Below are positions 4,634 to 28,257 of a stretch of DNA of 64,000 nt, piece after piece. Numbering within the stretch: position 1 is the stretch's first letter; each line of letters begins with the position of its first letter. The position numbers were made by a program, and so were the translations under genes. Source of the DNA: Lactobacillus xujianguonis. Its GTDB lineage: Bacteria; Bacillota; Bacilli; Lactobacillales; Lactobacillaceae. The notes beneath the pieces were generated by a model, which worked only from the letters and a program-made list of their open reading frames with translations, was not told where the DNA came from and did not search any database. The DNA lies in assembly GCF_004009905.1 (NCBI RefSeq), contig NZ_ML136871.1, positions 62,001 to 126,000 of the forward strand. Reading direction: 5' to 3'.

Positions 4634-6580
4634 TTAATCGTTATCTGCGTCTAGTAGGGAGCCTTCTTCGCCCATTCTAAACTTAACGTTTTCTTCAATC
4701 CACTTTCTTCTAGCAGCCACTTTATCACCCATTAAGGTTGTTACTCGTCTTTCAGCTAACGCAGCATCATCAATCCGAACCCGAATTAGCATTCTAGATT
4801 CAGGATTCATTGTCGTTTGCCATAACTGCTCTGCATTCATTTCACCGAGTCCTTTGAACCGTTGCAATGAATAACCACGGCCCATTTTCTTTTCGGCCGC
4901 TGCTAACTCTTCATCAGTCCATTCGTATTCAACTTGAGCTTTTTTGCCACGACCTTTTTGCAGACGATATAGTGGAGGAAGAGCAATATAAACTTTGCCT
5001 TGTTCAATCATCGGTCTCATATACCGGTAGAAGAAAGTTAATAACAAAATCTGAATGTGTGCCCCATCATCATCGGCGTCAGTCATGATAATAACTTTGT
5101 CATAGTTAGAATCATCGACTTTGAATTCCGTTCCTACGCCAGCACCAATCGTATAAATCATGGTGTTGATTTCTTCATTTTTGAAAATATCTTTCAACTT
5201 GGCTTTTTGCGTATTCAAAACTTTACCACGCAATGGCAAAATTGCTTGGAATTTACGGTCACGACCTTGCTTTGCGGAACCACCGGCAGAATCACCTTCG
5301 ACTAGGAAAAGCTCATTTTTCTTAGGATTTCTAGATTGAGCAGGTGTAAGCTTGCCAGAAAGGACTTCCTTTTTTCGCCGTTTCTTACCATTACGGCTTT
5401 CATCTCTAGCCTTTTTAGCAGCTTCACGCGCATCCCTAGCCCGTTGTGCCTTCTTAACCAATTCTTGGGCTAACTCACCATTTTCCATCAAATAGTAAGA
5501 CATTTTTTCATAAACTAAGGCGTCAACTGCTGAACGTGCTTGTGGCGTACCGAGCTTTCCTTTTGTCTGTCCTTCAAATTCAAGTAATTCTTCTGGAATT
5601 TTAACAGATAAAACAGCACTCAGACCTTCACGATAGTCTGAACCATCGATGTTCTTATCCTTTTTACTCAAAAGCCCTTGCTTTTTGGCATAGTCATTAA
5701 AGGCTCTTGTAAAACCACTACGAGCACCAGCTTCGTGGGTACCACCGTCAGCCGTCCGGACATTATTAACAAAGGAAACGAGATTTTCAGAATAACCATC
5801 GCTATATTGACCACTAAATTCAATTTCCATTCCGTCTTGCTTACCATCAAAGTAAAAGACATCACTAATTGTCCCTTTGCCTTCATTTAAGTAAGAAACA
5901 AAAGATTTAATCCCATCATCATACTTAAAAGTATCATGATGTTCAGGATCACGTTCATCAGTTAAATTGAATTCTACCCCTTTTAATAAAAAGGCTGATT
6001 CACGAATCCGTTCTTGGATGGTTTCATACTTATACTTCACGGTTGAAAAGATAGTTGCATCTGGTTTAAAGGTAATGGTTGTTCCAGTTTTATCATTGGT
6101 CTTACCAACACACTTTAATGTACCAATGGGATGACCACCATTTTCAAATTCTTCTTCATAGGCGTTACCACCACGGACAACTCTAACCTTCATATAACTT
6201 GAAAGAGCATTAACTACGGAAGAGCCAACCCCGTGCAGTCCACCAGATGTTTTATAGTTTTGTTCAGTAAACTTACCACCGGCGTGTAAAACCGTCAGAA
6301 TAACTTCAATCGTAGGCTTACCAGACTTATGCATCCCAGTAGGCATCCCTCGACCGAAATCCTGAACAGTAACACTATTATCTTTATGGATGGTTACGTT
6401 AATTTTCTTACCATAGCCAGCCATTGCCTCGTCAACAGAATTATCAACGATTTCATAGACAAGTTGATTCAGACCATGAATATCAGTTGAGCCAATATAC
6501 ATTCCCGGCCGTTTTCTAACAGCTTCTAGGCCATGTAAAATTTGAATTGAAGAATCATCATATGTATTAGCTTTAGCCAC
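4634..6580 (-). CDS. parE: DNA topoisomerase IV subunit B
   Basis: ATPase subunit of topoisomerase IV. The GHKL ATP-binding motifs are visible (EIVDNSVDEAMAGY near residue 43, GLHGVGSSVVNAL near 114). The TOPRIM domain carries EGDSAGGSAKQGRDR (about 430) and DADDDGAHI (about 500), which bind the catalytic Mg2+. 648 aa fits ParE/GyrB. It is first in the parE-parC operon and divergent from plsY. Confidence 0.95.
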   Translation of the reverse strand: MAKANTYDDSSIQILHGLEAVRKRPGMYIGSTDIHGLNQLVYEIVDNSVDEAMAGYGKKINVTIHKDNSVTVQDFGRGMPTGMHKSGKPTIEVILTVLHAGGKFTEQNYKTSGGLHGVGSSVVNALSSYMKVRVVRGGNAYEEEFENGGHPIGTLKCVGKTNDKTGTTITFKPDATIFSTVKYKYETIQERIRESAFLLKGVEFNLTDERDPEHHDTFKYDDGIKSFVSYLNEGKGTISDVFYFDGKQDGMEIEFSGQYSDGYSENLVSFVNNVRTADGGTHEAGARSGFTRAFNDYAKKQGLLSKKDKNIDGSDYREGLSAVLSVKIPEELLEFEGQTKGKLGTPQARSAVDALVYEKMSYYLMENGELAQELVKKAQRARDAREAAKKARDESRNGKKRRKKEVLSGKLTPAQSRNPKKNELFLVEGDSAGGSAKQGRDRKFQAILPLRGKVLNTQKAKLKDIFKNEEINTMIYTIGAGVGTEFKVDDSNYDKVIIMTDADDDGAHIQILLLTFFYRYMRPMIEQGKVYIALPPLYRLQKGRGKKAQVEYEWTDEELAAAEKKMGRGYSLQRFKGLGEMNAEQLWQTTMNPESRMLIRVRIDDAALAERRVTTLMGDKVAARRKWIEENVKFRMGEEGSLLDADND

Positions 6581-18722: not shown

Positions 18723-19142
18723 TCAGGCATCGCAAGCGGTCAAATAGATAAAACCAAAAATGATTAAATCTCCCCATGCTGAGTGTCCCATACGATAGTA
18801 TGGCGTAAATGCACCGTGAGTCAGTTGTATCAAAGCTAAAGCCATACATACAACGCCAGCCATCACTAGCAGTATTTTAGTGATAATAATTATTTGTATT
18901 TTCGTTTTGGTTTTATGGACGTAAGGTGTAACAAAAGCAAATGCCATAAGTAACACACCTAATGCAATTAAGCCAATCGCTACATACTTGCTGTTCTCAT
19001 ACTGCTTCCACTGTGGAGGATAGATAAAGTACTTAGTATCCTTTGTTAGCAGCAAACCTTTACCCAAAATAAAAAGTCCGATTAGAATTTCAGAATATCT
19101 CACATTAAGCTTGGCTTTGATCTTCTCCAGATCTTGTTGCAT
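18723..19142 (-). CDS. Four-helix membrane protein, lysis/tail boundary
   Basis: 139 aa from ATG at 19142 (MQQDLEKIKAKLNVRYSE); the frame is open further upstream but that part overlaps the XkdX-like gene. Four hydrophobic segments (EILIGLFILGKGLLL, VAIGLIALGVLLMAFAFV, IIIITKILLVMAGVVCMALALI, WGDLIIFGFIYLTAC). No family recognised; found next to holin and likely involved in lysis or lysogen surface change. Confidence 0.6.
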   Translation of the reverse strand: MQQDLEKIKAKLNVRYSEILIGLFILGKGLLLTKDTKYFIYPPQWKQYENSKYVAIGLIALGVLLMAFAFVTPYVHKTKTKIQIIIITKILLVMAGVVCMALALIQLTHGAFTPYYRMGHSAWGDLIIFGFIYLTACDA

Positions 19143-19263
19143 CGTTATCGCCCACAATCTTCTTAAAATCATCTTCAGATAGAGAGCCATCTTGCACTTG
19201 GCTTTCTAAAAACATACGGTCAAAAAAGCCAGCTTGATAGCCAAATTGATAAATTTCAAACAT
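19105..19263 (-). CDS. XkdX-like small phage protein
   Basis: 52 aa: MFEIYQFGYQAGFFDRMF, then DGSLSEDDFKKIVGD. The pattern (short N-terminal aromatic helix, G-x-I/L-T/S-x-E-D/E-F-K-x-I-x-G) is that of the XkdX family found at the tail-fibre/lysis boundary of Gram-positive siphophages. GGGAGAGTAATT precedes the ATG. Overlaps the next gene. Confidence 0.7.
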   Translation of the reverse strand: MFEIYQFGYQAGFFDRMFLESQVQDGSLSEDDFKKIVGDNDATRSGEDQSQA

Positions 19264-19265
19264 AA

Positions 19266-19757
19266 TTACTCTCCCTCCTTAGGTGTAGCAGTGGTTGCTG
19301 GTGTTGGCGTTGCCTTAAGTGATTTAATGTCTGCACTTAAAGTACCTAGTTGACCTGCAATCATCGTAACCATTTTAGTTAACTGATCATTCTTAACACT
19401 CTCTGCAGTCTTAGCCTTAGCACTCTCATCTTGTTGCTGCTGAATTGCTTCAACCCTGTCTTTAATCTTGGCTAATTGGTTAGCTACCCCACTTGTGGAG
19501 TTTTCCAGCCACTTGCCGGTTGACCAGTTAAATTTAGGACTAGTTAAACCAGTTGGAACATCAACAACAATTGGATAGCGATTGAAATCTTGTTTTTCTG
19601 AAAGTAAGACTGGTTCACAGTCATGTTTTTCATCTGATCTGTATGCCAATTGTACAAACAGGCCGTTACCAACTTGTTTCTTCATTTCATTTGCTTTGTC
19701 TTGCCAATTCTTGTTTTCTTCCACAGTAGGTGTGGAGGTTTGTGTTTCTTCTACCAT
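19266..19757 (-). CDS. Baseplate/tail-fibre accessory protein
   Basis: 163 aa. Acidic Thr-rich start, a compact middle with VVDVPTGLTSPKFNWSTGKWLE, a coiled coil (VANQLAKIKDRVEAIQQQQDES), then helix and Ala/Thr/Pro-rich tail. The middle segment resembles short phage proteins that pair with an XkdX gene. Role in the baseplate is inferred from position. Confidence 0.6.
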   Translation of the reverse strand: MVEETQTSTPTVEENKNWQDKANEMKKQVGNGLFVQLAYRSDEKHDCEPVLLSEKQDFNRYPIVVDVPTGLTSPKFNWSTGKWLENSTSGVANQLAKIKDRVEAIQQQQDESAKAKTAESVKNDQLTKMVTMIAGQLGTLSADIKSLKATPTPATTATPKEGE

Positions 19758-19786
19758 AATTAATTTTCCTTTCTTAAATAATTCAA

Positions 19787-19858
19787 TGTATTTTTCTCAG
19801 AAAAAACAGACCCCTTGAGCGACAAGGGATTCCGCTGTTTTGTATTTTTCTCAGAAAA
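19787..19858 (-). terminator. Hairpin flanked by 18-bp direct repeats (tandem terminators)
   Basis: The stem AAAACAG..CCCTTG/CAAGGG..CTGTTTT (about 19802-19840) is followed on the minus strand by TTTTTT. It lies between two identical 18-base copies of TGTATTTTTCTCAGAAAA (19787-19804 and 19841-19858). A second hairpin GCCCCA/TGGGGC plus TTTT lies just upstream at about 19858-19877. Expected to lower transcription into the lysis genes. Confidence 0.6.
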
Positions 19859-19898
19859 TAAAAGCCCCAGGTGGGGCGTTCTCGTTAACGTTTGTCAT
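19851..19898 (-). CDS. 15-aa peptide ORF running into a terminator
   Basis: Encodes MTNVNENAPPGAFIF behind AAGGAG with a 10-base spacer. Its codons form the GCCCCACCTGGGGC stem of a terminator, and its stop lies in the T-rich tail. A translated leader of this kind could open the terminator; coding status is uncertain. Confidence 0.35.
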   Translation of the reverse strand: MTNVNENAPPGAFIF

Positions 19899-19916
19899 AA
19901 ACGATAGTCTCCTTAC

Positions 19917-20351
19917 TTATCCCTCAATTACTAAATTAACAGTGTGCTTAAATTTTAGTTCCCAGGTATTGACACCAGTAAATCCATCATTATTACCCAC
20001 AAGGAAAATGATATATTTTGCATTACCAGTATTAAAAGTTGCACTTGAGCCATTCTCCCAATTGGCGCTTGGATTATAAACTTTAGACCCTGCTTGAGGA
20101 GAGTCCACCAAGTAATACATCCATAGAAAATTTTTATTTGTTAATGGATTAACTTCTACAGAAACTGTCTCGTTCGGATACACTTTAATGAATTTAGATA
20201 CAAATCTTGTACCGCTTGCTGTTGGATCATTAATTATTAAAGTGTTTTTATATCCTGGTACAAACATAGTCTTAGGCACCCAAGACATTACATTTTCAGT
20301 AATATTGTTACGTATAGTTTCAAAGCTCTTCCCTTCTATTGATATAAACAT
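19917..20351 (-). CDS. Putative receptor-binding/tail-tip protein
   Basis: 144 aa, beta-rich, begins MFISIEGKSFETI; no recognised domain. Aromatic-rich strands (NKNFLWMYYLVD, ANWENGSSATF, NTWELKFKHTVNL) suggest a jelly-roll or carbohydrate-binding fold. Starts one base after the previous gene's stop, so translation is probably coupled. Function inferred from position in the baseplate cluster. Confidence 0.6.
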   Translation of the reverse strand: MFISIEGKSFETIRNNITENVMSWVPKTMFVPGYKNTLIINDPTASGTRFVSKFIKVYPNETVSVEVNPLTNKNFLWMYYLVDSPQAGSKVYNPSANWENGSSATFNTGNAKYIIFLVGNNDGFTGVNTWELKFKHTVNLVIEG

Positions 20352-20352
20352 C

Positions 20353-21075
20353 TTAAACCGCCACCTCCTTCACGAAAGTGGTGTAATCATTGATGTAAAG
20401 CCTATAGCGGAGCTTTACCCCCCCCATTTTGGATTCCAAGGCAGATAAACGGTTACTTAATGCATCATAGTCTGACCTCATTACATAATCTTTAATCGAT
20501 GGGATCCATTTAGGGCAATGCGTTCCTTTGACCATCGTCATTGATCCTATATAGAACGTTCTGTTATTTGCGCTTTCAATTCTCAATCCAAAAGGATTTT
20601 TAACATTATGATCCGAGTTTGCTACTGCTGTGATTGTTATCCAAGACCAAGGAAGTTCAGATTGTGAGCTTTTTATAATGTCGTGCCCAGAAAGAGTCAC
20701 AACTTGGCCATTAATTGTTTTATGTAAGATACTTCCATCGCCGCCATTTGAATCTAATGTATATGCTTGAAAATAAACGTCATTTTTATTTGTAGGTGAA
20801 AAGACATATGCGCCCAAAGTAAAAATATCACCAGCTTTAACAAACAACTGCTTTTGGAATGTTCCTGCCCATGGTGCAAAATTGTGAAAAGCAATATTGC
20901 CATTAGGATCTAATTTTGTATCAGTTAAATTTTTATTTAGGTAATTATAACCAGCGCTCTCCCAATTAGTGCCTGAAAAATCAGATGTTCCAACATATAG
21001 ATTAGTTTGTGGAATATCCTTCTTTTCTGCCAACTGAATTGGGTTCTTAGCTCCTTTTAGAAAAATGCTTGCCAT
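20353..21075 (-). CDS. Carbohydrate-binding-like baseplate protein with 3' G8 tract
   Basis: 240 aa. N-terminal adaptor (MASIFLKGAKNPIQLAEK), then a CBM-like beta-sandwich (TNWESAGYNYLN to FYIGSMTMVKGTHCPKWIPS, about 35-195), a short coiled coil (DALSNRLSALESK) and a 23-residue tail starting GGVKLRYRLY. The Gly-Gly-Val is written ATG-GGG-GGG-GTA, a run of eight G (20418-20425). Gain or loss of one G gives a stop within about six codons. Likely binds host wall sugars. Confidence 0.68.
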   Translation of the reverse strand: MASIFLKGAKNPIQLAEKKDIPQTNLYVGTSDFSGTNWESAGYNYLNKNLTDTKLDPNGNIAFHNFAPWAGTFQKQLFVKAGDIFTLGAYVFSPTNKNDVYFQAYTLDSNGGDGSILHKTINGQVVTLSGHDIIKSSQSELPWSWITITAVANSDHNVKNPFGLRIESANNRTFYIGSMTMVKGTHCPKWIPSIKDYVMRSDYDALSNRLSALESKMGGVKLRYRLYINDYTTFVKEVAV

Positions 21076-21470
21076 TATGCTACCTCCAATCTTGTGGAAG
21101 TAGCTAAAGCCTTGCGCCAGTAAGAATGTAGGCTATGCGTTACCCCCCCGATTTCAAGTGCGTGCCAGGTATTCCATTGAATCGGATCTCCGCCTTTAGT
21201 TCTTACAAACAATTTAGAATTTGTATCAATTACTAATTGGAACATAGCAGGAGCACTTGGTATAAATTTTGCAGTAATATATTTTGCCCATGGAGCGGTA
21301 GCATTAGGAGAATTAATTGGCTTTTCACCCCATGAAGCATAAATTCCAGGTTCAAGAGAGTTTAAATCAACATGACTATCAATCTTAACAATTTGATTGC
21401 TATTAACGAGAGCTGATAGCAGACTGTGAGCATTTAAAAGCTCTTCACCTTTAGCAAAAAATCTAGCCAT
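21075..21470 (-). CDS. Pyocin-knob-like receptor-binding protein with 3' G7 tract
   Basis: 131 aa. Adaptor MARFFAKGEELLNAH, then a knob-like domain (LNSLEPGIYASWG, MFQLVIDTNSKLFVRTKGG, IQWNTWHALEIGG), the pattern of pyocin/tail-fibre knob domains. The last 24 residues follow the Gly-Gly-Val motif encoded ATC-GGG-GGG-GTA (G7 at 21143-21149); slippage truncates them immediately. The start overlaps the previous stop by 8 bases. Confidence 0.7.
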   Translation of the reverse strand: MARFFAKGEELLNAHSLLSALVNSNQIVKIDSHVDLNSLEPGIYASWGEKPINSPNATAPWAKYITAKFIPSAPAMFQLVIDTNSKLFVRTKGGDPIQWNTWHALEIGGVTHSLHSYWRKALATSTRLEVA

Positions 21471-21951
21471 TGTAAAGCACCGCCTTTCCGCGGTACCAGT
21501 GGGTTAGGAGACTACTGAGTACCCCCCCGATTTGCTTTTTTAGGTCTGAAATTTCTTGTTCTAATCGTTGGATGTCAGACTTCCACGCAATGTAATCTTC
21601 CCAGCCACCTAATGCCGTATTATTAATGCCGTTTAAAGATGTAATTTTAGCTTTATGGGCAAAAGAATTAATACTAAAGATCTTAATTGTATCCTTTCCA
21701 CCAAAAGCTATTGCATCAGAATAATTATCAGCAAAAGCACCATTTACATTGCTAGGAAATTCGTCTCTAATAACCATCAAATGTCCATCAGAGTCATTAA
21801 CTCCAAGCTGCTTAACCAAGTCTTTATAATCTGCTGGATTTTGTGAACCTAAATGCTTATACAAAGGTGTATCCACATTTACTTTCTTATCAAAATCCTT
21901 CTGGCTGACATCATTTAAAATCTGCTTGCCATTTTCATAGATTTGAGTCAT
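21463..21951 (-). CDS. Baseplate protein with coiled coil and 3' G7 tract
   Basis: 162 aa. Adaptor MTQIYENGKQILND, a central beta-rich domain (about 55-120), a coiled coil (DIQRLEQEISDLKKQ) and a tail GGVLSSLLTHWYRGKAVLYNG. Gly-Gly-Val is written ATC-GGG-GGG-GTA (21522-21528). A GAAAGGAGAAAAC ribosome site precedes the ATG. Shares adaptor and tail layout with the next two genes, consistent with modular duplication and swapping of receptor-binding units. Confidence 0.65.
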   Translation of the reverse strand: MTQIYENGKQILNDVSQKDFDKKVNVDTPLYKHLGSQNPADYKDLVKQLGVNDSDGHLMVIRDEFPSNVNGAFADNYSDAIAFGGKDTIKIFSINSFAHKAKITSLNGINNTALGGWEDYIAWKSDIQRLEQEISDLKKQIGGVLSSLLTHWYRGKAVLYNG

Positions 21952-22049
21952 ATGTTTTCTCCTTTCAAAAATAAAAACGGCAGCTATTCACTGTCGTTGC
22001 ATAAAATCGTTATCGTTAGTGTTATCAATTCTTCTTATAAGCATAAGAA

Positions 22050-22565
22050 TTATCCTAACCTCTTTGTTTCTATGGCTCCATCCTTAATAATGTATTTCTT
22101 TACATCGTCATATTTAACCCAAACCATATATAGGAAGGGTGCCTTTACTTCAGCCGAATCCATTGTCCAACTATTATCATCTGTGGCGTTGTAAAAGACC
22201 CCTAAAAATAAGGTATCTTTAGCACGATAATTAACATTATCAGGTGTAATAGCTAAATTATTAGCAGGGATAATTGCTTCACTTAAAATAGTAGAATTAT
22301 TATAATTATCCCCCCAGTTTCTGGGGTCGTTATCTTTCATTGCCAAAAAAGCGTTAAAAATTTCATCTTTTTTTATTGTGTCATATGCAAGCCAATCAAA
22401 AGTCGTGATTTTTTCATTGGTCTTTCTGTATTTAGACCAGTCAATTGCTTGTCCAATTAAGTTAGGCATACATTCCGTATTACTTAATTGATAAATTCCA
22501 TCTTTTGACGTTGTTATTGGATAATAATCGGTGTTCTTATATCCAAGCATCTTTGTTTCAGCCAT
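22050..22565 (-). CDS. Tail/baseplate protein, unknown
   Basis: 171 aa soluble protein; begins MAETKMLGYKNTDYYPITTSKDGIYQLS. No family recognised. Contains a G6 run (22310-22315) that is one arm of a CCCCAG/CTGGGG inverted repeat. An imperfect hairpin before a T run (about 21975-21995) separates it from the three G-tract genes. Confidence 0.6.
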   Translation of the reverse strand: MAETKMLGYKNTDYYPITTSKDGIYQLSNTECMPNLIGQAIDWSKYRKTNEKITTFDWLAYDTIKKDEIFNAFLAMKDNDPRNWGDNYNNSTILSEAIIPANNLAITPDNVNYRAKDTLFLGVFYNATDDNSWTMDSAEVKAPFLYMVWVKYDDVKKYIIKDGAIETKRLG

Positions 22566-22580
22566 TACGCAACCACCTTT

Positions 22581-24002
22581 CTAGTGCACTATATATACGA
22601 TATGTTCCTTGTTTTTCTGCTCTGCCGGCAGTTTATTGTAGTCAGCTTCTGAGATTTCTACACCATGTGTTGCAGCGTCTAAGTCTGTCTTAGTAGCATA
22701 ATTGTTTTGCATTTGAGCAATCGTGTTTTTGATATTTTGCAAATCGCTTGAATTGTCCTGTTGATTAACCTTATCTTGCAGAGCAACAATTGCGTCATGA
22801 TTACTGGTAACTGTGATAACAGTGTTATCAGGTAAAGTTGCCGAAGTTGGTCCATCATCTGCATCGTAGATATAAACCCCATCACCTGTCTTAGACGCTT
22901 CAAATGCTGCTTGAGGGCTGTCGTAACCTGTGTGATTAACTTTGAAGTTAATGTCACCTTTTTGTCCATTAAAGCTAGTAACACCACCTGCAGGCAAGCT
23001 AATGTTGCCGTTGCTATCTGGCTGAACGTTATTAACTGTTTTGACCTTACCTGCATCGTTCAGCTTTTCATTAACTTGATCTTGAGTGTAATAATTGGCT
23101 AAATCATCAGTAATTTTTTCATTTGTTTCCCTTTTGGTGTAGTAATTTTGTAAATCTGATGGTTTAACGAATCGAGTAAAGTCTATGGCACTAAACTGCT
23201 TTGCAAGCTGTTGCATCTTGGATACGGCATCATTAATTTGCTTCTGAATATTAGTAACATCAGTGCCATTCTGTTGTACTTGAGCAAGTATGCCATTAAC
23301 CTGTTTTTGATAGCTATCAATTGTGGAAGTTTCCCAAGACTCAAAATTAGTTCTTAATTTGGAAAAATCATCATTATACTTCTGATTGATCGTATTAGTA
23401 TATCCTTCCACATTAGAGAGAGCAGCAGTAGTTTTATCTGTTAAATCTTTTAAAGCGTTAGTAATCGCTTGTTGATTAGCAGCTTTGGTATTAGTAATCT
23501 GCTCAGTAAGTTGCGCTTGCATATCATTTAGATCACTTGTTAATTTTGTTTGGACGCCTGCCATTGCAGTTTCCAAAGCTTTAAGTGATCCTACATAATC
23601 ATTATTGGTAACACTAATCTGAGCGTCTTTTTCAACATCAAAATAAAAATTTTTAGTGGAGTCTACTGTAGTGCCATCAGTAATCTCAAACCAAGCTTTA
23701 CCACTTGCTGTATAAATATCAGGTTGTAAACAGTATGTAAAAATGCCTTTACTGTCGTTATCTGAACTACGAGTAAATTTACCAGAATTGTCTCCTTGCC
23801 CATTATCAATAATGATTTTATTACCATTTTTGTTCTCACAAAAAACTAGATTTTTACCAGTCAAGTTATAGGCAGAATTATCTGCATTTAAAACCGTGAC
23901 AGTAATTGATAAGCCATTTTCATCTTGTCGAAGTTTACGATGTGCATTATCAATTACTGCTGTGCTCTTGTCTGTTGTTAGAGTTATTGGCGCTAGACTC
24001 AT
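22581..24002 (-). CDS. Baseplate upper protein (BppU-like) with coiled-coil stalk
   Basis: 473 aa. Residues about 1-140 match the BppU N-terminal beta domain that docks on Dit/Tal (LRQDENGLSITVTVLNADNSAYNLTGKNLVF, then a phage-typical F-x-V sheet). Long coiled coils follow (about 150-330), then a small distal domain (GGVTSFNGQKGDINFK onwards) ending KEHIVYIVH. Probably a trimeric stalk that carries receptor-binding tips. AGAAAGGAGAAGGCTC precedes the ATG. Confidence 0.8.
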   Translation of the reverse strand: MSLAPITLTTDKSTAVIDNAHRKLRQDENGLSITVTVLNADNSAYNLTGKNLVFCENKNGNKIIIDNGQGDNSGKFTRSSDNDSKGIFTYCLQPDIYTASGKAWFEITDGTTVDSTKNFYFDVEKDAQISVTNNDYVGSLKALETAMAGVQTKLTSDLNDMQAQLTEQITNTKAANQQAITNALKDLTDKTTAALSNVEGYTNTINQKYNDDFSKLRTNFESWETSTIDSYQKQVNGILAQVQQNGTDVTNIQKQINDAVSKMQQLAKQFSAIDFTRFVKPSDLQNYYTKRETNEKITDDLANYYTQDQVNEKLNDAGKVKTVNNVQPDSNGNISLPAGGVTSFNGQKGDINFKVNHTGYDSPQAAFEASKTGDGVYIYDADDGPTSATLPDNTVITVTSNHDAIVALQDKVNQQDNSSDLQNIKNTIAQMQNNYATKTDLDAATHGVEISEADYNKLPAEQKNKEHIVYIVH

Positions 24003-24162
24003 GAGCCTTCTCCTTTCTATATTTATCTACAATTTTCTGTAACTCAGCATTTCTAATTTCTAACTGGTTCTTTTCATCAGTTACTTTGGCCAATTCCATG
24101 TTTAGTTGTGTAATTTGAGTTCCCATGTTATTAGCTAAAGTTGTAATCATTGTATTTTGCAT
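23950..24162 (-). CDS. Small coiled-coil baseplate protein
   Basis: 70 aa: TQLNMELAKVTDEKNQLEIRNAELQKIVDKYRKEK is one continuous coiled coil, with a polar Ser/Asn tail. It overlaps the BppU start by 53 bases in another frame, so the two are translationally coupled. Probably a structural partner of the stalk. Confidence 0.6.
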   Translation of the reverse strand: MQNTMITTLANNMGTQITQLNMELAKVTDEKNQLEIRNAELQKIVDKYRKEKAHESSANNSNNRQEHSSN

Positions 24163-24175
24163 AACGACTTACCTC

Positions 24176-27100
24176 TTATAAATCCCAATACTTTGCAGGT
24201 CCTCTCCAATAGCCTTTAATCCAATTTCCTAAAACATTGTTAGCGGCAGAAGTCCATAAAACCTGTTCACTTCTTCCATTGCGATTCCTAGTGATTATGC
24301 CATCTCTAATTAGTACATCACCTAAACTAGCTTGCGAAGTAGTAATCCAATTTTGGCCACCACCAATATTGATATAACCCGATCCAATAAACGTATTGTA
24401 ATTAGTAGTAGAAATACCAATACCTCCTTGAACATCTCCACTGTCTCCATAGTGAGGCACAGTGTTAGTGACATTACCAATCTGTACAGTTACGTACGGA
24501 TTGCCATTAGAAACTTGCAAGTTTCCTTGAATGGTTCCCAATGATGTAATCGTATCAGTTTGGATATGTGATGCATCCAGTACTGGAATATGTGCCTGAT
24601 CAACGAAAAAATTACCTGTAATTTCACCATTGTATGGATTAACTCCAAACAAAGCATGATCATTCCCGTTTTGGTCTTTAAATGAAATACCATTGTTATT
24701 TAGAGAAAAATAGGTTGACCCATTGTAAGCTCTAATTTCAGTTGGATTCTGCATATTTTCATTTCCAGAATCATCCACAAATTTCAAAATACCTTTAGGT
24801 CCGGTAGCTATATAGCTACCAAGATTATCAATACTTGTTTTCATATCTGACATATGTTTAGCGAAGGCAGCTACGGATTCATCAAATTGCAGCACTTGTT
24901 TACCATTTTTATCAGCAGTGTAGTGAGCATCACCTAACTTGACCATTAAGTTTTCCCAAGCTTGGGTTTGTGCACTGCCTTGAAGCTTAAGAGCTTGGTT
25001 AACAGCCCCGACAAAACCACCAACTTGGTTAACTTGACCAGTAACACGACTAATGCGCTCATTAGATTTCTGATCAATTTTTTTCTGCAGCAGGTGTACC
25101 CAACTAATAGGTAAATTACCCAACGTTAAACTAATATATCGATGTGCTAAGCAGTCCCAAACATAGCCATTAACTTGCACTCTCTCCGACAAATTGTATT
25201 TGTCATACTTAACATACAAATAGTCATACAGCGATAATTGTTGAAAATCAGCATTAATGCCTGACATCTCTTGATAACCAATTGTTGTGCTGATCTGTGG
25301 ATGACCAAAACGGTGTTCAATTAAATACTGTCTACCAATTTCAGTGACTTGATCAATATCTTTTTGAGTAGGAACAAAAGACCCATCCGGTTGCTGACCG
25401 GACAGATCTTGATCATCGTGTGTAAATAGATCTGATACATCCACATATGTGACTTTATCGATATTAGGATTAATGCCAAAGCCATCAGCATATATAGGAC
25501 CAACTTTAACTTTGACAGTTTTTTGAGATTGATCAATGTTAGCCACCATATTGCTACTGGTATCAGTATCAGCCCCAGCATCAGGAGCATTTAACTGAGA
25601 ATTCTTATCATCAATGGAATCTTCAGGTAGCCACCCAGTTTTGCCAGCATAAGTTACTTGCACATAGGTTTTACCATCTCCACCTTTAGCTTCATAACCA
25701 GTTACATCTAAGCTTGTACCGCTTGGAATTGACCAGTTAAGAGCATCATGGGTACTTGGTGTGGAATAAATTTCAACTTTTGAGTGATCAGTAACTCTTT
25801 GCTTTAAGTAGCTGCTAGAAGTCTGAGGCTTAACGGAACCATCTTGTGTATAAGATATACCGGAACTTTTAACCCAACCATACTTAGTATGCTGGTAAGT
25901 TACGCCACCTTGAGTAATTGTACGGTCAATTGTAGTCATACCCTTTTTAGCTTTAACTTTTACTTTTTTCTTCTTAGTTTTCCAGTAATTCTTACTCCGT
26001 TTGCTTTTACTACCAGCTTTATCAACCGTTTTAGTGGTAGCAACCATTTGATGATTTTTATTTAAGTGATACTTAACAGCGCCATCTTTAACGTAACCGT
26101 AACCATAGTTACTAAAACTTTGGTAGGAGCCATCTTGTGAGAGTGACAAGTGAGGACCATATAACCAATTGTGATCACTTACTCTGTACCACAAATCTCC
26201 CTTAGTATTCCGCTCTACCATATCGTAATGGATTCTTTTACCGTTCTTGTACGTCTTACCATTACGGTAATGCTGAGGGCCAATATCAGGTGCATAGTAA
26301 CCGTAAATACTGCCACCTTTTTTGTAAGCCACGACAGCATAGCCAGAAATACTTACACGACTTCCCAAACCTGACTCATCGTGTGGATCAGAAGCTTGTA
26401 CAGTAATATGTCCAGTTACCGGATTAACGATATAAGCACCAGTTTGATCAAAAGTTAACCAATCAGATTCAATCCATCCTCCACCATCTGCCGGATCAAT
26501 TGGATACCAGCCAGTAGAATTAACAGTATTAATTTGATATTTGCCATCAGGAGTAAAGTCACCATCATTAACAATGGTTCCAAGCTTTAACTTTTGACCA
26601 TTAGTAATGGTTCTGATAATTTTCTGACCCTCAACTGGTGAGTCATAAATATTAATCGAACCACCAGCCATGTAAGTAATACCGATACTGCTGTAATTGC
26701 TTTGCCAGCTTGACCAACCGGACCAATCTTCTTTAGCGATAGCTTGACCTGGTTCATAACTTGCAACAAAAACAGCACCGGTAAACATCGACTCGGTGCT
26801 TTTATCATGGTTTAAGGATGTAATGTTTTTGCTATTTACTTCAATACCGGAATCTTTACCAGCATGTAATGTGTGATGAATTCTGAAATTGTCAAATTCC
26901 AACTCACCACCAAATAAACCAAGTAAAGATTGAGTTGCCTCGTCTCCCTCTTGATCTGGATCAGTAAGGATTGAACCAACTGTCTTACCATCCTCAAGAT
27001 TTACGCTGCTTTGACGCATCACATCACTATCAAAAGTAAACTCTTTTTGCGGCTCCATGATGTTAAAAACTTGGTTCATAAAGTCCTGAGCACTTACATT

Positions 27101-27481
27101 TTTAAGCTGAATCTCATCAGGAATGATTGCATCATTAAGCGTTGCAGAAATATGCTCTGCATCCACAACAATGTTATCTAACTCTTGCTGAATATGAGTA
27201 ATCTTGAAAAGCTGATGCAAGAATTTAGCATTAGCATCTTCCATGATCCACTTGTTTTCAGCTAATTTATCAGCATTGATACCATCTGCAGGATAAGTCA
27301 TTTGCAAAGTTGGATACTGACTAGCGTTGCCTGAAACTTGGCAAGTAATCGAATCTGGCAAAGGATAGCCAGCTGTTGTTAAATCAGCAGTTAAACTGTC
27401 GTATAAATGAGGCATCTTTTCATAGCCCTCATACTCACCATAGTTAATTTCTGGAATTGTACCAACTGTCACCTTAGCCAT
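24176..27481 (-). CDS. Tail-associated protein Tal (gp37-like) with inserted SH3/SLAP-like wall-binding block
   Basis: About 1101 aa from ATG at 27481 (GGAGG 11 bases upstream); an ATG 18 bases earlier is less likely. The N-terminal 250 residues and about 640-850 are the prophage endopeptidase-tail (gp37/Tal) scaffold that closes the tail tube. Residues about 265-630 are an insertion of several SH3/SLAP-like modules (INIYDSPVEGQKI, AYKKGGSIYGYYA, VEIYSTPSTHDALNW, YAGKTGWLPEDSI) plus a Lys-rich spacer. The C-terminus is beta-helical. The insert probably clamps the tail tip to the wall. Confidence 0.82.
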   Translation of the reverse strand: MAKVTVGTIPEINYGEYEGYEKMPHLYDSLTADLTTAGYPLPDSITCQVSGNASQYPTLQMTYPADGINADKLAENKWIMEDANAKFLHQLFKITHIQQELDNIVVDAEHISATLNDAIIPDEIQLKNVSAQDFMNQVFNIMEPQKEFTFDSDVMRQSSVNLEDGKTVGSILTDPDQEGDEATQSLLGLFGGELEFDNFRIHHTLHAGKDSGIEVNSKNITSLNHDKSTESMFTGAVFVASYEPGQAIAKEDWSGWSSWQSNYSSIGITYMAGGSINIYDSPVEGQKIIRTITNGQKLKLGTIVNDGDFTPDGKYQINTVNSTGWYPIDPADGGGWIESDWLTFDQTGAYIVNPVTGHITVQASDPHDESGLGSRVSISGYAVVAYKKGGSIYGYYAPDIGPQHYRNGKTYKNGKRIHYDMVERNTKGDLWYRVSDHNWLYGPHLSLSQDGSYQSFSNYGYGYVKDGAVKYHLNKNHQMVATTKTVDKAGSKSKRSKNYWKTKKKKVKVKAKKGMTTIDRTITQGGVTYQHTKYGWVKSSGISYTQDGSVKPQTSSSYLKQRVTDHSKVEIYSTPSTHDALNWSIPSGTSLDVTGYEAKGGDGKTYVQVTYAGKTGWLPEDSIDDKNSQLNAPDAGADTDTSSNMVANIDQSQKTVKVKVGPIYADGFGINPNIDKVTYVDVSDLFTHDDQDLSGQQPDGSFVPTQKDIDQVTEIGRQYLIEHRFGHPQISTTIGYQEMSGINADFQQLSLYDYLYVKYDKYNLSERVQVNGYVWDCLAHRYISLTLGNLPISWVHLLQKKIDQKSNERISRVTGQVNQVGGFVGAVNQALKLQGSAQTQAWENLMVKLGDAHYTADKNGKQVLQFDESVAAFAKHMSDMKTSIDNLGSYIATGPKGILKFVDDSGNENMQNPTEIRAYNGSTYFSLNNNGISFKDQNGNDHALFGVNPYNGEITGNFFVDQAHIPVLDASHIQTDTITSLGTIQGNLQVSNGNPYVTVQIGNVTNTVPHYGDSGDVQGGIGISTTNYNTFIGSGYINIGGGQNWITTSQASLGDVLIRDGIITRNRNGRSEQVLWTSAANNVLGNWIKGYWRGPAKYWDL

Positions 27482-28257
27482 TAGATTAGTCGCCTCCATT
27501 TCGGCTTATATTCAGCCAATTGAATGGTATTGGAACTATCAGCAGTAATTTCAATCGTGTTCTTACCATATGAGAGAGTTGGTGGCTCTAAGTTAGGAAA
27601 ATGGCACTGATTGTTGTAAAGATTATTTGAAGCATCATATACATCACCAGTTTCACCACTTACCCAAAATTCACCTTCCATATTGTCAAACTCATAAGGT
27701 AAGCCATTGACATAAAGGATAAAAGTACCATTAGCGATAAAATGCCAGTCTGGACTAGTCTCACGACTATCCAGATTATTTACATAACCCGCTTTTGGCA
27801 GATCAGTAAATTTAATCCCATCTAGTCGGTAATAAAACGGATCAGTATAGATTGAGATGGTGCCAGTACCTAAATTAGTAGAATTTTCATCCCATTCAAT
27901 TGTTGGTACATCTTTAACAATTCCGTAAAAAGCATAGTTTTCATCTTCATCAAAATAAAAGTAACTGTATTGTCTTTTACCGTCCATCTGTGGAGGCATT
28001 AGCCAGTTAATCAACTGACGATTAAATTCAGCTCTAGTCCATTCAGAAGGAAGTTTAACAATAATGTTAAAAGTCTGAGTAGTATTTTGATAAGATCCAT
28101 AATCAACTAAATAATCACCGCTTCTGGAATTAACATGCGATGTATCAATATCCGGTACTGGATGCACTGGATTAAAAGGATACTTTACAAGAATTCCAAA
28201 ATCAGTAGATTTACGATTGTTGAAAACAATGCCTTTATAATTATCTAAATCTTCCAC
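27481..28257 (-). CDS. Distal tail protein Dit
   Basis: 258 aa of the siphovirus distal-tail (PF05709-type) family: N-terminal belt domain with YKGIVFNNRKSTDFGILVK and RSGDYLVDYGSYQNTTQTFNI, C-terminal galectin-like part. Forms the hexamer ring between tail tube and baseplate. The start is GTG with an excellent AAAGGAGGGG site; it overlaps the tape measure stop by 17 bases. Confidence 0.88.
   Translation of the reverse strand: MEDLDNYKGIVFNNRKSTDFGILVKYPFNPVHPVPDIDTSHVNSRSGDYLVDYGSYQNTTQTFNIIVKLPSEWTRAEFNRQLINWLMPPQMDGKRQYSYFYFDEDENYAFYGIVKDVPTIEWDENSTNLGTGTISIYTDPFYYRLDGIKFTDLPKAGYVNNLDSRETSPDWHFIANGTFILYVNGLPYEFDNMEGEFWVSGETGDVYDASNNLYNNQCHFPNLEPPTLSYGKNTIEITADSSNTIQLAEYKPKWRRLI

Follow-up and report, generated by a model that had tools for sequence, protein, structure and literature searches.

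Guanine tracts at gene junctions of Lactobacillus prophage tail arrays as candidate phase-variable gates of translational coupling

Why would three neighbouring genes in the tail region of a prophage each carry a long run of guanines close to the 3' end? The question is raised by a stretch of 64,000 nucleotides (nt) of the Lactobacillus xujianguonis genome (contig NZ_ML136871.1, positions 62,001 to 126,000; hereafter the window), where the adjacent minus-strand genes 21463-21951, 21075-21470 and 20353-21075 hold coding-strand runs of seven, seven and eight G (G7, G7 and G8) at 21522-21528, 21143-21149 and 20418-20425, respectively. Our answer, to which we would assign a probability of about 0.7 based on comparisons among sequences, is that slipped-strand phase variation gates translational coupling along arrays of tail genes, such that a tract length that lets the upstream frame run through to the start of the next gene (ON) would favor translation of that gene, and a length that does not (OFF) would impair it. 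A first-pass annotation of this DNA had placed the three runs exactly where they are found and had read them correctly as GGG-GGG-GTA codons for Gly-Gly-Val, and these codons precede the stop by approximately 20-23 codons, the stop itself being counted; in the G8 tract, one G is also the last base of an ATG codon. Equally confirmed was that no other G/C run in the window exceeds six, the sole run of that length being located at 22310-22315 in gene 22050-22565, that GGG is an uncommon glycine codon (73 of 901 glycine codons in 28 chosen minus-strand open reading frames, or ORFs, of the window), and that the gain or loss of one G soon leads to a stop, found here 0-5 codons past the glycines. The three G/C runs of at least seven compare with 0.09 on average, and never more than one, in 100 simulations under an order-2 Markov model.

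What is conserved at these sites is an element at the nucleotide level, about 60-80 nt long, that extends from the G run through the start codon of the next gene. The genome to which the window belongs (2.2 Mb, 81 contigs) contains six GGGGGGGT sites, of which half belong to the window and half to contigs C18 and C34. The latter three are also at the 3' ends of small genes and share common downstream DNA, while their upstream frames differ: at one of the C34 sites (C34a) the upstream frame runs on (IGGVNSLLTHVYQALRSLFRNEVIA) and its stop overlaps the next ATG, whereas at C18, and likewise at locus L011 of genome G015, the upstream gene stops immediately (GG*), and at the second C34 site (C34b) it stops two codons later. 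Because upstream genes enter the same DNA in different frames, the element is not a protein motif, and the conserved Gly-Gly-Val peptide seen in the first-pass annotation was rejected as such. In a second genus of the family (g38), in fact, the tract lies within a leader ORF of only 10-26 codons, situated between two phage genes that are tail genes by position.

The element is not confined to this prophage. A profile built on sequence only from five copies (R1) matched 32 of 75 Lactobacillus genomes at E values of 1 or below, many of them weakly, and profile matches reached E 3.4e-13 in genomes outside the building set (G005; 8.4e-13 with R1). When 40 chosen regions and three earlier ones were examined, which represent a selection and not all GGGGGGGTA sites, tail-type copies were found in at least 14 of the 75 genomes, that of the window included, and in several genomes tandem tracts are 315-725 bp apart, as in G068, with sets of three and four. 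A second profile (R2), built from 37 copies and run with stricter filters than R1, had matches in 52 of the 397 family genomes at E values of 0.05 or below, most of the matches outside the genus being weak; a scan for G runs in 13 loci derived from R2, 12 of them outside the genus, yielded convincing relatives in g38 (genomes G422 and G381) and in genus g6 (G175). Among 17 viral contigs obtained through a pattern search, five hold the element, and the other 12 match the pattern with no adjoining G run.

The layout of reading frames around the tract was studied in 56 copies (37 from Lactobacillus, nine from five IMG/VR contigs, seven from outside the genus, and three with G6), which are related to each other, hence non-independent, and among which tandem prophages are counted twice. 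A copy was called ON when the stop of the upstream frame fell within -12 to +25 nt of the next start. By this definition 38 copies are ON and 18 OFF (ON/OFF 1/3 for G6, 22/7 for G7, 11/7 for G8, 2/0 for G9, and 2/1 for G10), and all three tracts of the window are at ON length. The distance from tract to next start is 51-73 nt, with 87 nt in one copy, and each of the 37 copies from Lactobacillus has one or more frames that stay open up to a point between -12 and +30 nt relative to that start. In a typical copy, stops close two of the frames shortly past the tract, and the third runs on to the start of the next gene. This double-stop layout, defined by a first stop inside 10 nt, another inside 20 nt, and 50 nt or more without a stop in the remaining frame, was present in 34 of 54 copies (two rows from L144 were left out), with 6.7 expected from dinucleotide shuffles and never more than 17 in 20,000 simulated totals, and the closed frames thus look selected as judged from these counts. 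In ON copies, the 0-frame stop lies at an offset between -1 and +11 nt from the next start, except in one of the 38, where it is at +22, and it often overlaps that start as ATGA (offset +4 in 11 copies and +7 in 10). In OFF copies, the upstream frame ends 3-28 nt past the tract, and behind all but one of the 18 OFF tracts an ORF of 69-275 codons has remained open. At one locus (L080, plus strand, from 6471), the gene after the OFF tract has no ATG, GTG or TTG where its start would be expected, and by eye its similar N terminus would start at ATT; the start of this copy was assigned by hand, and the copy was dropped from the first binding-site test reported below (36 copies counted) and retained in the frame counts and in the opening-energy and arm-swap tests.

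The tail of the upstream protein could itself be what matters, each tail protein existing in a long and a short form, as the first-pass annotation had proposed for receptor-binding proteins, and the ON and OFF versions of the window proteins would indeed differ by about 13-21 C-terminal residues. We hold this explanation to be very unlikely. Similar DNA read in different frames gives unrelated peptides, as seen when L075 (4992) is compared to L076 (4993), and it is because the g38 tract sits in a short leader ORF that coupling is preferred over a function of the protein tail. Long and short proteins are probably not the main consequence of a change in tract length, and the opening of the locked start of the next gene is preferred in that role.

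Among the ideas of the first-pass annotation, replication slippage leading to phase variation is the best supported, in that tandem-duplicate as well as orthologous copies differ by exactly one G, with a change of frame. Genome G381 carries two tandem prophages with a repeat unit of 41,066 bp, and their piecewise alignment over 41,080 bases revealed one difference, a single G in a relay tract. Where the tract has G9, the frame of the leader runs on to overlap the next ATG (ON), and where it has G10, that frame stops (OFF). Four runs of at least nine G were found in the whole of this genome, and all four are relay tracts. In the second case, orthologues whose proteins are 84-92% identical have G8 and are OFF in L164, and have G7 and are ON in L175 and L083; from start codon to next start, these three separate records differ in length by that G only. 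Free use of other glycine codons by homologues, which had been named beforehand as a sign against slippage, was not observed, as all 56 counted copies have an uninterrupted run of G6-G10, even though copies were found by a G-run pattern or by run-containing profiles, and those that lost the run would for this reason be under-counted.

For a change of frame to control the neighboring gene, the start of that gene would have to be closed unless ribosomes arrive from upstream. Opening the RNA from -18 to +3 of the next start was predicted to cost a mean of 16.0 kcal/mol in 37 copies, compared to 6.4 kcal/mol for 124 other close-packed starts of the same loci (p = 1.3e-17), and opening energy exceeded that obtained with shuffled upstream arms by a mean z of 1.68, with 24 of 37 copies above 1 and controls at -0.02 (p = 4.2e-9). 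When the RNA upstream of -18 was removed, which approximates its state under a ribosome, the cost fell to 6.0 kcal/mol at element starts and 2.8 at control starts. Exchanging upstream arms between copies lowered the energy (mean z 1.41, p = 1.4e-7), and in 11 of 37 copies the native arm ranked above 95% or more of the swaps; because such an exchange lowers the opening energy, arms and start regions appear to have varied together. These predictions suggest, for the set taken together and with exceptions among individual copies, that the next start is locked by RNA structure formed with the read-through stretch. A different fold, in which the G run would form a hairpin with a downstream pyrimidine tract, appeared in many predicted structures and was rejected, being no better than in shuffled sequences (p = 0.14).

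Several observations weigh against the gating of coupling by tract length. The difference seen in G381 could stem from an error in sequencing or assembling a homopolymer, and the window prophage is without a length variant, the sole matching viral contig (L007) having identical tract lengths. Without upstream RNA, element starts are still costlier to open than control starts (6.0 vs 2.8, p = 6e-6), and in six of 37 copies (L075 at 5400, L082 at 5485, L083, L091, L092, and L094) the structure is local, 13.1-16.2 kcal/mol being left once upstream RNA is removed; in the last three of these, pairing includes the start codon itself. The first relay of the window shows no arm specificity (swap z -0.11), and swap z is below zero in five of 37 copies. 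The first test performed, on pairing of the binding site with upstream RNA, gave p = 0.55, with p = 0.0058 for the site being paired at all; part of the cause was the choice of wrong sites by the first binding-site finder, which often picked GAAAGG over AGGTGG and was replaced by opening energy. Because the copies are related, moreover, the p values given here are optimistic. Finally, OFF copies lean toward needing a -1 shift (10 vs 5).

This last point brings in programmed -1 ribosomal frameshifting on G_GGG_GGG/T, which would produce the short and the extended or downstream product at a fixed ratio with no change in the DNA, and which we consider unlikely. The tract fits the pattern of a slippery heptamer, and a -1 shift would put 10 of the 18 OFF copies in frame. 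Such frameshifting is reported, in the passages concerned of PMC5009743, for the major virion genes of Lactobacillus phage A2, and a change of frame in a virion gene of a Lactobacillus phage is what the two cases have in common. Programmed frameshifting, however, has a constant direction and yields its product in the -1 frame in every case, whereas OFF copies here need both directions (10 need -1, five +1, two either, and one is unassigned), and the 38 of 56 copies that already read through in the 0 frame would lose it. The one-G differences between matching copies, together with the occurrence of G8-G10 tracts, also argue against it. A mixture of phase variation and -1 frameshifting is possible.

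Homopolymers are error-prone in sequencing, and chance or artefact would account for the tracts as coincidental runs with lengths set by sequencing error. Some other G7 sites of the genus do resemble plain coding sequence, such as those at L153 and L158, in what we take to be a ParB-like gene. Chance or artefact is nonetheless extremely unlikely given the expectation of 0.09 runs against three observed in the window, the profile matches in genomes that did not contribute to the profile, and the stop and structure statistics.

The arrays may instead be viewed as the product of exchange. Array genes resemble each other at their N termini, vary in the middle, and have the common element at their boundaries, and the element recurs across unrelated cassettes, all of which would suit a seam for homologous recombination of tail cassettes, as had been raised in the first-pass annotation, with the G tract as a by-product. 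That this is the main role of the element seems quite unlikely to us, as it leaves unexplained the stops in two frames, the lock on the next start with its covariation, the one-G differences, and the copies in leader ORFs. Recombination at such a seam can coexist with switching.

If phase variation does gate coupling, a ribosome on a message with an ON tract would traverse the element, unwind the structure, and allow translation of the next gene, and with an OFF tract it would stop at the tract, leave the structure shut, and the next gene would be poorly made. Polymerase slippage would alter tract length at random, and a population of lysogens, or a phage burst, would then vary in tail-tip composition from one member to the next. 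A tentative extension, which we rate slightly below even odds, is that tandem small tail-tip genes make up a serial phase-variable translational relay, with one random one-bit switch per junction, in which, coupling being polar, the first OFF tract cuts off the rest and a ladder of tail-tip compositions results from one prophage lineage. In arrays with exactly one OFF tract, the OFF tract is the last in eight of 10 (our own tally; binomial probability about 0.055), and this bias would be the footprint of polarity.

Several known systems share features with the one proposed here. Diversity-generating retroelements and invertible tail-fibre segments depend on an enzyme that rewrites or flips coding DNA; the presumed purpose, heterogeneous receptor binding, is alike, but here only tract length would change. 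Translational coupling through a structured ribosome-binding site is a general mechanism, and the elements resemble ordinary coupled pairs in that the upstream stop is at, near or overlapping the next start, which is structured in the set as a whole and would be locked unless ribosomes pass; ordinary coupling is fixed, whereas here the frame would be switchable. Coupling is also treated in PMC3711429, in which the relevant passages assign frame transitions either to phase variation or to translational coupling and contain no combination of the two. The slipped-strand contingency loci of bacteria, described in passages of the same work for surface proteins and type III methyltransferases, are similar in that the length of a homopolymer sets the frame, and length polymorphism between near-identical copies is found here as well; those loci, however, switch the gene that holds the tract, and here the presumed target is its neighbour. 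As for phages, polyG tracts in Campylobacter Fletchervirus phages are said to diversify receptor-binding proteins (a passage in PMC11959909, citing Sorensen et al. 2021, Cell Rep). In the one Fletchervirus record that we analyzed, NCTC12673, there are two G tracts of at least seven, G11 and G9, located 39 and 46 codons into their genes, which is the usual in-gene switch. The likeness lies in a phage-encoded polyG; in our set, by contrast, the tract is found in a leader or close to where the upstream gene ends, 51-73 nt before the start of the next gene as the presumed target, in tandem arrays and in temperate prophages of lactobacilli. In the open-access literature, judged by titles and abstract openings, we found no polyG switch in Lactobacillus phages, no tract-gated coupling, and no relay at 3' ends.

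Were our reading true, temperate phages of lactobacilli would vary their tail-tip proteins through tract length alone, and would do so compactly. It would also amount to a new regulatory logic, in which a mutable tract controls a neighbouring gene through translational coupling. In addition, the silent tail genes of a prophage would be predictable from sequence, which bears on host-range prediction, and annotation would take OFF copies for shortened genes followed by a gap.

G tracts were also encountered in host genes, which are those of Lactobacillus unless another genus is given. Large surface-protein-like genes have G7-G10 tracts 46-103 codons in, ON in L098, L105, L148, L150 and L151 and OFF in L090, L095 and L149; in L148, the sole gene of this kind that was checked against Pfam, Rib and FIVAR domains were found. 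The L090 gene (G016:C73, minus strand, 4461), a large surface-protein-like gene with an LPQTG-type tail, has a phage-type element (R1 E 6.5e-8) 65 codons in; it is OFF with G7, and its -1 frame is open for about 3.6 kb. Locus L103 (G036:C3) has two methyltransferase-like paralogues at 5208 and 7216, with tracts 30 codons from the start, the first G8 and ON, the second G9 and OFF, and the G9 copy matches type III methylase domains. In L099, L101 and L114, G7-G10 tracts are found about 100 codons in; L099, a regulator, has an HTH_3 domain, L101 and L114 are similar by eye, and L114 (G10) is out of frame. A G7 tract at 4061 of L146 (G350:C35, genus g6) is 191 codons into a type I restriction specificity gene (Methylase_S, E 3.8e-29) and in frame. 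At five more loci (L097, L100, L152, L154, and L156), G8-G9 tracts are located between apparent TTGAC- and TAAACT/TAAAAT boxes, with a spacing of 19-20 by eye, and the genes that follow encode secreted or wall-anchored proteins; phase variation of a promoter spacer is possible there. The tracts of the surface-protein-like genes, the L103 paralogues, L099 and L146 look like ordinary contingency loci, and because host genes carry such tracts, slippage is plausible as a normal process in these cells. They would point to a broad use of polyG contingency tracts in Lactobacillus itself, of which we found no description in the open-access literature, again at the level of titles and abstract openings.

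Regarding the searches from which the set was assembled, one (L096) of 20 fetched loci and four (L142-L145) of another 20 gave counted copies, and one locus scan kept only sites that are preceded by an ORF of 40 codons. L090 and L095, as surface-protein genes, and L011, which matches L014, were left out of the tail set; L115 and L116 are 100% identical to loci already included and provided no strain comparison. Relatives of the window gene 21463-21951 were limited to one viral contig, L007, 100% identical, with none among genome contigs. Phage records gave no match to window positions 19900-22600 or to the L091, L130 and L128 regions, the match to phiadh (two phage records) was limited to bases 11-250 of the 2,401-base L076 query, and L145 gave one 72-base match to a Vibrio phage. 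Viral contigs searched with the g38 pattern or with the L091 protein yielded nothing. A G9 run followed by CCCTCTA in L117 (an Alistipes metagenome-assembled genome, plus strand, 6025) is a pattern match only and may be due to chance.

In the window, the array is flanked by a tail protein gene (24176-27499; phrog_12493, E 8.8e-183) and, on the other side, by a holin gene (18723-19190; phrog_4325, E 4.2e-18), a placement that makes the 'baseplate' label given in the first-pass annotation plausible, although unproved gene by gene. We infer from this place, the tandem arrays, and the variable middles that array proteins bind receptors. The array includes four minus-strand genes: 21463-21951, encoding 162 amino acids, which matches phrog_12519, of unknown function (E 7.6e-15), and also phrog_23463, labelled 'minor head protein' (E 1.3e-5); 21075-21470, encoding 131 amino acids downstream of relay 1, with no PHROG or Pfam match; 20353-21075, tail-like, encoding 240 amino acids downstream of relay 2, with a weak match to phrog_1330 ('tail protein', E 4.2e-5); and 19917-20351, encoding 144 amino acids downstream of relay 3, itself without a tract and with no PHROG match. 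For gene 20353-21075, a search of solved structures gave a best match at E 0.8, and structure prediction was unusable, with a mean predicted local distance difference test (pLDDT) score of 38.9.

The three relay elements, all on the minus strand, extend from 21528 to 21468 with the next ATG at 21470 (R1 E 4.4e-12, this copy being among the five that built R1), from 21149 to 21073 with the next ATG at 21075, and from 20425 to 20349 with the next ATG at 20351 (R2 E 1.7e-4 and 1.7e-6, respectively, both copies being among the 37 that built R2). In the first, a hairpin of eight pairs is predicted at 21476-21497, just 5' of the start of gene 21075-21470, with an opening energy of 13.4 kcal/mol. The hairpins predicted in the second (21079-21104; opening energy 18.0, swap z 2.47) and third (20361-20381; opening energy 14.6, swap z 1.44) include the ribosome-binding sites GGAGGT and GGAGGTGG, respectively, in their 3' arms. 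An Rfam scan of positions 19000-23000 gave no match at E values of 1 or below. A role of these hairpins as transcription terminators was rejected, as terminator-like minus-strand sites are present within 19800-24100, none of them at the three relay hairpins. Directly 3' of the last array gene, at 19864-19877, lies a terminator-like stem that is seen on both strands.

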